Shown: positions 9,731 to 52,374 of the stretch, in pieces
Position numbering within the stretch: position 1 is the stretch's first letter
Layout of the letters: each line of letters starts with the position of its first letter
Assembly (NCBI RefSeq): GCF_013408525.1
Contig: NZ_JACBZM010000001.1
Span: forward strand, 3,162,001-3,226,000
Direction: 5' to 3'
Source of the DNA: Nocardioides aromaticivorans
GTDB lineage: Bacteria; Actinomycetota; Actinomycetes; Propionibacteriales; Nocardioidaceae
DNA length: 64,000 nt
The notes under the pieces: model-generated
What the model saw: only the letters and a program-made list of their open reading frames with translations
What the model was told of the DNA's origin: nothing
The model's database searches: none
Made by a program: the position numbers and the translations under genes

Positions 9731-9766
9731 TTCGTCGAGGAGGTTGCGCAGCAACCGTCACGAGAC
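9731..9766. repeat. Dispersed 36-bp palindromic repeat, copy A (diverged ends)
   Basis: The core GTCGAGGAGGTTGCGCAGC is followed by AACCGTCACGAGAC. The inner part GGTTGC-GCA-GCAACC is a stem-loop. It lies in the short space between the end of fliA and the flagellin promoter. Other copies are at 14317, 15446, 33452 and, partial, 52375. Confidence 0.8.
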
Positions 9767-14060: not shown

Positions 14061-14306
14061 GTGCTGGTTCTCTCCCGTCGCGTCGGCGAAAGCGTCGTCA
14101 TCGGTGAGGGCACGCCCGACGCCGTGACCGTCACCGTGCTCGAGGTCCGCGGCGACGTCGTCCGGATCGGCATCGACGCGCCCCGCTCGGTCGCCGTCCA
14201 CCGCGCCGAGCTCCTCGCCGAGCTCGCCGACGCCAACGCCGAGGCGGCCTCGCCCCCCGCCGACGCCGTCGCCTCCCTCACCGAGGCGCTCCGCTCCCGC
14301 CAGTAG
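14061..14306 (+). CDS. csrA: Carbon storage regulator CsrA, RNA-binding translational repressor
   Basis: CsrA (81 aa) is a dimeric beta-strand protein that binds GGA motifs in mRNA leaders. The N-terminus [16 protein letters not shown] and the core [18 protein letters not shown] are diagnostic, with the RNA-contacting Arg in APRSVAVHR. The C-terminal 25 residues are an Ala-rich extension. It begins with GTG 17 nt after fliW and without a visible ribosome binding site. FliW should antagonise it, and the flagellin leader is its expected target. Confidence 0.96.
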
Positions 14307-14316
14307 CCACCCCCGC

Positions 14317-14352
14317 TGGTCGAGGAGGTCGCGCAGCGACCGTCACGAGACC
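14317..14352. repeat. Dispersed 36-bp palindromic repeat, copy B
   Basis: The sequence begins TGGTCGAGGAGGTCGCGCAG and ends CGACCGTCACGAGACC. It is the exact reverse complement of copy C at 15446-15481, so the two form a 36-bp perfect inverted pair 1.1 kb apart. It lies 10 nt after the csrA stop and upstream of the HNH gene. Confidence 0.9.
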
Positions 14353-14583
14353 TCTGGCTCCGGTGCACCCGCTGTGCCCTTCGGTTGGGTAGGTGATCGG
14401 GTCTTCAAGCGCAGCGACGAGGAGGCTGGGTCGGGGCTGGGTTCCGGCGGTCGGGTGCGGTCCGGCAGCTCGTGATCACTCGTCGCACCACTAGCTCTTC
14501 ACATGCGCCGGATGGAGTTTCCCCTGTCCACAGGCGGGTTTCCGTCGCTTCGTTGTGTCGGAGGTCGATGCAAGAATCCAGTC

Positions 14584-15915
14584 ATGGACCTCGACACCAG
14601 CACCGTCTCGACAGCCTCGCTGCTGTCCGAGATCCGTGACGGTGTCGACCTCCGCGACGCCCTCATCGTCCGCGAATGGCAGGCCATCACGTCGTGGGCC
14701 GAGGCCAACATCGTCGAAAGTCCCGAAGGTGCCGCGACCCTGACGGAGGGCTACCTCGACACCGGTGTCCCGATCGCCGGCCCCGGCGCCCCGCTCGTGT
14801 CGGAGTTCCAGCTGATGGAGCTCATCGCGGTGCTCGGCCGCTCACCGGACGGTGGCCGGTCGTACGTGGGCCAGGTCATCGAGTGCGCCTGGCGCCTCCC
14901 GCTTCTCTACGCCGCCATGGTGGACGCCCGGGTCACGCCGTGGCGAGCCCAACGCATCGCCGACCTGACCAGGTCGCTGCCGGCAGAAGCAGCAGCATTC
15001 GTGGACCGGCACCTCAACGCCGCCGTCGGCGGCGTCGGCTGGGCACAGCTCGAACGCCTCGTCACCGAGGCGATCCTGCGGTTCGACCCCGAACGCGCCG
15101 AGGCCGAACGCCAGGCCGCGAACGACCGCCGCCACTGTGACGTCCACATGGACGAGGTCGACGCGCACGGCGGCGTGCACCTCGACGCCTACCTCGACGC
15201 CGCCGACGGCCACGACCTCAACCAAGCCGTCGCCCGCGAGGCGCACCTACGGGGCCAGCTCGGCGACACCGACTCGTTGGACGTGCGTCGTGCGAAGGCT
15301 GTGGGTGCGATCGCCCGCCGCGACCTCGCCCTCGACCTGCTGATCGCCGACGAGACGACTGGCGAGGTCATCGCCCAAGCCCCCGGACGTCGGGTGGAGC
15401 TGAACGTCCACATCACCGACACCGCCCTGACAGCACAGGCACAGGGGTCTCGTGACGGTCGCTGCGCGACCTCCTCGACCACCAACACCGTCGGTCGCTG
15501 GGACGAGGGCCGCTGCCCGGTCACCACCGCACAGATCCGGGAATGGCTGCAGGTCCCGGGCACCACCGTCATCGTCCGACCGGTCATCAACCTGGCCGAC
15601 TGCATCCCGGTCGACTCCTACGAGATCCCCGACCGCCACCGACACCGCGTGGCGCTGCGAGATCACACCTGCCGGTTCCCCAACTGCCCCCAACAGGCAG
15701 TTCGCTGCGACCTCGACCACGCCAAGCCCCATGCCGCGGGCGGCAAGACCTGCCCGTGCAACCTGGTCCCGCTTTGCAGGCGCCATCATCGTGCGAAGAC
15801 CCACTCGACCTGGCGCTATCTCGTCGTCGTCCCAGGGCACTACTTGTGGACCAGCCCCCACGGCCACCACTTCCACGTCGGCCCCGCCGGCACCCGCCCA
15901 CTCGACGGCTACTGA
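14584..15915 (+). CDS. DUF222/13E12-type HNH endonuclease family protein
   Basis: This 443-aa protein has an N-terminal DUF222 domain (about residues 20-290) and a C-terminal HNH nuclease module at about 370-430. The Cys pair is in HTCRFPNCPQQ, LDHAKPHAAGG holds the first His, and NLVPLCRRHHRAKT holds the catalytic Asn/His set. The family is multi-copy in actinobacteria and resembles the REP13E12 proteins of mycobacteria; its cellular role is unclear. The ATG at 14584 is preferred over one at 14503 because it starts the conserved part. A 36-bp repeat is inserted in frame at about residues 288-300. The gene interrupts a flagellar/chemotaxis region, suggesting acquisition. Confidence 0.85.
   Translation: MDLDTSTVSTASLLSEIRDGVDLRDALIVREWQAITSWAEANIVESPEGAATLTEGYLDTGVPIAGPGAPLVSEFQLMELIAVLGRSPDGGRSYVGQVIECAWRLPLLYAAMVDARVTPWRAQRIADLTRSLPAEAAAFVDRHLNAAVGGVGWAQLERLVTEAILRFDPERAEAERQAANDRRHCDVHMDEVDAHGGVHLDAYLDAADGHDLNQAVAREAHLRGQLGDTDSLDVRRAKAVGAIARRDLALDLLIADETTGEVIAQAPGRRVELNVHITDTALTAQAQGSRDGRCATSSTTNTVGRWDEGRCPVTTAQIREWLQVPGTTVIVRPVINLADCIPVDSYEIPDRHRHRVALRDHTCRFPNCPQQAVRCDLDHAKPHAAGGKTCPCNLVPLCRRHHRAKTHSTWRYLVVVPGHYLWTSPHGHHFHVGPAGTRPLDGY
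15446..15481. repeat. Dispersed 36-bp palindromic repeat, copy C, inside the HNH gene
   Basis: This copy is in frame within the HNH coding region and encodes about 12 residues, GSRDGRCATSSTT. It falls just before the conserved PVTTAQIREWL segment, a place likely to tolerate extra loop residues. It is identical to copy B in inverted orientation. Confidence 0.9.
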
Positions 15916-16210
15916 CCACCAAGCCCCACACCCCGCCCCACCGGCGGGGCCACCGGCGCGTCCGGGACAGACTCAGCCGGACTTCCTCCCGGCCGCGGCC
16001 GCGAGGACTCGCCGGATCACCTCCGTCGTCGACGACGCAGAGGCGTGGTCGGTTCGTCATCTCCGGGGCCCATGGCAACCCATCCACCACCAGGCCCCGC
16101 GTCCCGACGTCCCCGAACGGATCCACCACCCGGGACCCCGGTCCCGACTCCACGATCGCCCCTCATCCGCCTGCGGCCCGCGCCGATGGACAGCGCGGAA
16201 GGGAGGGCCA

Positions 16211-52290: not shown

Positions 52291-52374
52291 GCGCCGGGAG
52301 CGCACGACCGATCCACGGTTCGCGCCCTCGCGGGGCCGGGCGTGGCTCTCGTGCCCGAGCGGTGGATCGCTCGT

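Follow-up and report, generated by a model that had tools for sequence, protein, structure and literature searches.

The window, a 64,000-nt stretch of DNA from Nocardioides aromaticivorans (genome G000), contains a gene unit in which a short REP-like repeat, a leader, a DUF222/HNH endonuclease gene and a terminator-like hairpin follow one another on the forward strand, with a second, inverted copy of the repeat inside the gene. The features are as follows:

14061 to 14306, forward strand: host gene immediately 5' of the unit, which we take to be csrA-like (named by sequence)
14317 to 14352, forward strand: REP-like repeat that marks the left edge; its core is 36 nt long and, with one mismatch allowed, extends over 40 nt to 14356
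14353 to 14583, forward strand: leader (beginning TCTTCAAGCGCAGCGACGAGGAGGCTGGG), kept among paralogues and recognisable in other species according to alignments
14503 to 15915, forward strand: DUF222-like/HNH endonuclease open frame, with a likely start at 14584 (MDLDTS, as in database relatives)
15429 to 15479, forward strand: in-frame insert in the linker between DUF222 and HNH, missing in four of seven paralogues (alignment against empty sites)
15446 to 15481, reverse strand: inverted REP-like repeat within the gene, its 36 nt identical to 14317 to 14352
15931 to 15965, forward strand: terminator-like GC hairpin (GGCGCGTCCGG), right edge of the unit as defined by the 3' ends of seven copies

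The outer arm of the repeat pair starts 10 nt 3' of the csrA-like stop codon. Both arms (14317-14356 on the forward strand and 15442-15481 on the reverse strand) are 40 nt long, 98% complementary and separated by a spacer of 1085 nt, being the longest inverted pair among those listed for 13-17 kb. The first-pass annotation described them as exact reverse complements 1.1 kb apart, which is correct for the first 36 nt and incorrect for the full 40 nt, where 39 of 40 positions agree and the sole mismatch is at position 37. It also placed one copy ahead of the DUF222/HNH gene and one inside it, and the inner arm does lie within the open frame. The window has further copies at 9733 and 33453, both of a GTTGCGCAGCAAC subtype (the one at 9733 differs from the core at three positions), and at 52374 on the reverse strand, where there is a single mismatch.

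The size and copy number of the repeat fit a REP element (a 20-40 nt imperfect palindrome in many copies, most of which are intergenic). Its 24-nt core was detected at 155 places in G000 at up to three mismatches and at none for a reversed-pattern control, by which a chance origin is ruled out. The wider REP-like family (GGTYGAGG...CGARACC) had 5 to 504 matches per genome in 147 Nocardioides genomes, compared with 0 to 7 for the reversed control, and some of these matches are ordinary coding sequence, such as most of those listed for G001. A hairpin is predicted for the repeat; its stability is not clearly above that of shuffled sequences (z of -0.03 to -1.76 for six sequences). Among the copies listed for G034, a 34-nt subtype lay at HNH loci in 17 of 21 copies, and 40-nt subtypes were scattered, frequently in inverted doublets spaced by about 90 nt. 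Around other repeats of G000, no repeated gene family was common to 40 stretches analyzed with a crude gene finder and blastp, and 13 of 78 repeat copies in these stretches lay inside crudely predicted genes. Genome G020 showed 103 pattern matches and no HNH match at E 1e-20; its assembly is 7% contaminated.

A protein search of G000 identified seven close copies of the window protein, itself included (group A, 83-100% identical), eight diverged copies (group B, 30-31% identical to group A) and a few more distant members. PF02720 matches the group B genes with E-values up to 2e-4, and three of the eight exceed the curated cut-off. One group A copy (L012) has an internal stop. Because homology among the group A copies starts at the repeat and stops after the terminator hairpin (GGCATGTCCGG or similar in most paralogues), the repeat forms the left edge of the duplicated unit. 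A full generic repeat was found within 600 nt upstream of all seven group A and seven of the eight group B genes. Tandem half-repeats are also present upstream; in several group B loci their period is about 28 nt.

The insert that carries the inner repeat measures 51 nt (about 15429-15479). At this common site, the insert amounts to 51 nt in L012 and to 45 nt net in the window copy (L011) and L013, and the site is empty in L014-L017. Since the window copy is 6 nt shorter right after the 51-nt insert, the net gain is 15 residues, which replaces the first estimate of about 12. The same site and a nearly identical 13-nt extension in L011, L012 and L013 point to a single insertion, later copied, and not to three. 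Homologues without the insert, which the first-pass annotation had proposed to look for, therefore exist in the genome itself (four of seven), and the N. aromaticivorans proteins in the database are split likewise, with the insert in P0003 and without it in P0004, P0007, P0009 and P0014.

DUF222/HNH genes are highly repeated across actinobacteria, and we know of no role for them; no activity of the family was found described in the open-licence literature searched. The window protein had no Pfam match at 0.001, many relatives about 65-70% identical to it are named PF02720 (DUF222) and HNH, and it keeps an intact HNH motif (DLDH...GG.T...CRRHHRxKTH). In a search of solved structures up to E 1, the sole match was McrA, a weak one (E 0.11) confined to the HNH part. 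The median dN/dS of 0.12-0.26 in eight paralogue sets, from which broken copies such as L012 were left out, indicates purifying selection on the nuclease. A guide or otherwise structured (OMEGA-like) RNA was considered for the leader and rejected, as the consensus fold of 26 leaders is weak at just -4.2 kcal/mol, even though none of 100 column shuffles reached so low a value. A scan of 13-17 kb against Rfam gave no match up to E 1.

The association between nuclease and repeat is real and extends further than first noted, which suggests a link between the two. Enrichment of the repeat near DUF222/HNH genes is strong in the window genome and in others. Among 100 listed of the 155 places in G000, 38 fell within intervals set at 12 of the 15 group A and B genes (0.75% of the chromosome). 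When these 100 listed places were grouped into 59 clusters, 12 were at HNH loci, compared with 0.44 expected on the basis of approximate spans for group B genes. Across 13 control-matched genomes, a REP was present within 600 nt upstream of 51 of 63 HNH genes, 9 of 232 ordinary genes (predicted in 20 arbitrary 14-20-kb stretches of the 13 genomes) and 2 of 49 intergenic gaps of at least 250 bp; the last of these figures weakens the idea that a long non-coding leader would be a sufficient cause. HNH loci were mostly REP-bearing in 9 of the 13 genomes, with various REP subtypes, and edge REPs were found in three diverged HNH groups (A, B and C). An association of nuclease and repeat, as first proposed, is thus supported by both the insert-free homologues and the enrichment, and the outcomes named as contrary to it (close homologues with the insert but no repeat family elsewhere, or no enrichment) did not occur.

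The larger collection comprised 130 HNH loci from 28 genomes including G000 (15 from G000, 80 chosen from group A matches, 30 from REP-rich genomes and 5 from G014), three of which (L240, L241 and L252) begin at contig ends and were left out. After recheck, 73 of the 127 usable loci had a REP within 600 nt upstream; at L251, REPs lie 232-624 nt ahead of the true start. The REP-bearing loci were distributed as follows: G000 14/15, G091 8/8, G034 8/8, G139 6/7, G033 5/6, G119 6/7, G145 4/5, G025 4/4, G043, G078, G079 and G133 3/3 each, G093 1/1, G041 1/1 usable, G045 1/3, G097 1/3, G051 1/2 and G077 1/2. None of 36 HNH loci carried an exact REP in G123 (11), G014 (5), G002 (6), G085 (5), G062 (5) and G063 (4), nor did the three HNH genes in each of the REP-rich genomes G012 and G022 or the one locus of G080; G026 had no usable HNH locus. 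In-gene matches of G093, G063 and G085 were discounted as chance or as HNH coding sequence, in which the RCDLDH codons match in reverse complement. The presence of group A does not track REP number across genomes, and the REP-rich genomes G079, G026, G022 and G041 have no group A match at 1e-60 but other HNH genes. An earlier REP pattern with a 5-bp stem missed the G091 and G034 subtypes; a looser one was adopted after G091, and the same looser pattern was applied to HNH loci and controls. Since some genomes were picked as REP-rich and the pattern was built after the sequences had been viewed, the association test was not blind. Moreover, HNH copies within one genome are not independent, since a single REP can reach all of them through duplication and gene conversion.

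The best explanation of these observations, to which we assign a probability of roughly 45%, is a REPtron-like mobile unit whose enzyme is an HNH nuclease instead of the tyrosine transposase. Such a unit would consist of a REP at the left edge, the leader, the DUF222/HNH nuclease and the terminator hairpin. The nuclease would recognise or cut REPs, whose number may then grow as the break is repaired or copied, above all at the nuclease's own gene. Of the pair in the window, the outer copy would be the edge REP, and the inner one a REP that inserted into the linker, was retained because it was in frame, and was copied to two sister genes. A transposase of the RAYT type (Y1_Tnp, PF01797) was detected in none of the 147 Nocardioides genomes (the control was positive in 5 of 14), and the recurrent partner of the repeat is a DUF222/HNH gene under purifying selection; for these reasons, an action of the nuclease on REPs appears slightly likelier than passive accumulation.

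Under passive accumulation, something else would move the REPs, and the HNH units would be dispensable repeats that tolerate them; copying would spread a REP to sister genes, and gene conversion and duplication would also keep the REP subtype uniform within a species. Because HNH units multiply without REPs in other species, this explanation is nearly as likely. The single insertion copied among three paralogues, which have a common insert site and an almost identical 13-nt extension, agrees with it, as do the nearly identical array in all eight G091 copies and the REPs found in frame in other genes. It accounts less readily for the scarcity of REPs in long intergenic gaps of the same genomes (2/49), for an association that recurs with various subtypes in 9 of 13 genomes and three diverged HNH groups, and for the lack of a repeated gene family at 40 other REP stretches of G000. 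The strongest facts against an action of the nuclease on REPs are the REP-free HNH units of other species, the REP-rich G020 with no detected HNH gene, and gene conversion, through which one REP can reach every copy. Also against the REPtron-like unit are the REP-less HNH genes of G012 and G022, the in-frame REPs in about three other G000 genes, the reverse-oriented HNH units described below, at which no REP was found downstream, and the hairpins that are not clearly more stable than shuffled sequences. A more specific proposal, that the DUF222/HNH nuclease, unrelated to RAYTs, itself moves REP-like palindromes and would be the missing REP mobiliser of these actinobacteria, which would target its own gene by preference and diversify its linker with REP-encoded peptides, is made with still greater reserve.

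Another explanation is a landing site: HNH units would insert or home at REPs, each unit then ending up next to a REP that was already there. The position of the REP at the left edge of the unit, several times just 3' of a host stop codon, and the occupation of the same intergenic sites by HNH units in several species agree with such a landing site. The site test used 52 of 54 sites matching six left flanks of G000 (L309 and L331 were dropped for too little sequence). REPs were present at all six orthologous sites with an HNH gene in the same direction and at 2 of 42 sites without an HNH gene; the remaining 40 have none. Both REP-only sites (L303 and L317) flank a single G033 array, which lies between two convergent genes, contains Ns and may be a scaffolding join. 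At the site that the unit occupies in the window, a cheA-like gene comes straight after the csrA-like gene in G014, G034, G035, G031 and G006, with neither REP nor HNH in any of these five gaps when read by eye; in G033, REP arrays are present at this site, at the end of a contig. In view also of the REPs within the nuclease gene, a pre-existing landing site is considered unlikely.

Turnover of REPs was also seen at shared sites. Genomes G123 and G139 have four HNH units in common, with matching flanks on both sides; in G139 a REP lies between host gene and leader, and in G123 it is absent or different and decayed. At an ABC-ATPase-like site, an HNH unit follows the same host sequence in G000, G033, G091 and G145 with largely different REP sets. 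There, the stem of the inverted G033 REPs is that of the G000 type, and G091 carries, in addition to its own type, a decayed G000-type copy; G119 and G051 also hold HNH units at this site. As the downstream flanks were unmatched in two cases tested, a common ancestry of the insertion at the ABC-ATPase-like site is not proven.

Four HNH units in reverse orientation (L327, L329, L339 and L344) were set aside in the site test, and a scan of 900 nt downstream of them detected no REP. Three of them, L339 (G139), L344 (G123) and L329 (G227), occupy in opposite orientation one site that also holds L016 (G000) and L296 (G033), and L327 (G222) lies about 1 kb further on. Opposite orientations at one intergenic site may reflect separate insertions at a hot spot or an inversion. 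The first-pass annotation had suggested that the repeat pair could allow inversion of the segment between its arms. Recombination of the inverted pair would then flip the 1.1-kb segment and switch the gene on or off, for which the perfect 36-nt inverted arms and the opposite orientations at the site just described could be cited. However, a flip would break and truncate the gene, the inner arm is missing in four of seven paralogues, no inverted form of the segment was seen, and the opposite orientation elsewhere can result from separate insertions, which together render such a switch highly improbable.

Besides the window gene, REPs in frame were found in the same linker region of HNH proteins in at least four lineages. 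The linker between DUF222 and HNH contains them in three of seven genes in G000 (one of which, L012, is broken), in all eight genes of G034, where the frame was traced in every gene and some genes have two REPs, and in two of three in G078. In-frame linker REPs in the other orientation were present at all three group C loci of G139, which were fetched since REP pairs had shown there. REP-like peptides were also observed at the same place in the database proteins P0013 and P0015 (SRDGRCATSST) and P0028, as well as in P0031, P0067, P0092 and P0093 (AGVSRRPWPASSTN), and judging from their sequence these linker peptides probably encode REPs. Three other G000 genes (L042, L062 and L066) contain apparent in-frame REP peptides such as PVVEEVPQRPSRDP, which resemble Rickettsia RPEs, so the nuclease linker is a frequent site and not the only one. 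In-gene matches in L048 and L058 looked like ordinary coding sequence. The in-frame REPs of the nuclease linker illustrate how proteins can gain length from a mobile repeat.

Known REPs are accompanied by RAYTs, HUH/Y1 enzymes whose gene lies among the REPs (available part of PMC8266576). The arrangement described here is similar to such a REPtron (RAYT/TnpA-REP) in that an enzyme gene has short palindrome-like repeats at its borders, further copies of which are dispersed over the genome, subtypes vary by species, and inverted doublets like BIMEs are formed. Unlike in the REPtron, the enzyme is a DUF222/HNH nuclease and not of the HUH/Y1 (PF01797) type, and its gene is multi-copy, whereas tnpA-REP is single in most cases according to the available part of PMC8266576. 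In addition, no GTAG tag stands beside the palindrome: it is absent from the repeat as listed and from the position directly before the repeat in seven group A loci, and the GTAG that precedes the window copy by 10 nt corresponds to the stop codon of the csrA-like gene.

In the mycobacterial REP13E12, the repeat is the whole gene. The Nocardioides units share with REP13E12/13E12 the multi-copy DUF222/HNH genes, which are named together in the available part of PMC10589994, but are linked to a dispersed short palindrome, which that part does not mention for 13E12. Short palindromes in frame within proteins are also a feature of the Rickettsia RPEs, and CGTC-tagged REPs seem to be without a dedicated transposase (both from the available part of PMC3733652). 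Unlike these, the repeat here has a nuclease partner, for which there is no counterpart in that part of the account; the word 'actinobacteria' is absent from PMC3733652. A mobile unit in which an HNH nuclease follows a conserved leader also recalls IscB/HEARO (OMEGA), although the match of the window protein to the IscB model NF040563 (NCBIfam) is weak (13.4 bits, cut-off 175) and covers the HNH part only, no RuvC match was among the families reported for the protein, and the leader is without a convincing RNA fold.

A link between REPs and DUF222/HNH genes was not described in the titles and abstract openings of the open-licence literature searched. Where a genome has no RAYTs, no mobiliser of its REP-like palindromes is known. 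A nuclease tied to REPs would make both the role of the nuclease and the REP mobiliser directly testable. If true, this would be a second, unrelated enzyme type in the same REPtron-like arrangement.

Several minor features of individual loci were also recorded. All eight HNH copies fetched from G091 (L151-L158) have tandem half-REPs with a period of about 34 nt before one full REP, which lies about 70 nt from the HNH gene. In G119 (L202-L205), REPs upstream on the forward strand and inverted REPs downstream of the HNH genes are arranged like terminal inverted repeats. Finally, a CGAAC-N4-GTTCG box, which is presumably a LexA/SOS-like motif, was found 5' of 11 of the 128 HNH loci scanned (L232, L234, L235, L239, L244, L247, L250, L255, L258, L001 and L027), implying that some DUF222/HNH genes may be DNA-damage induced.
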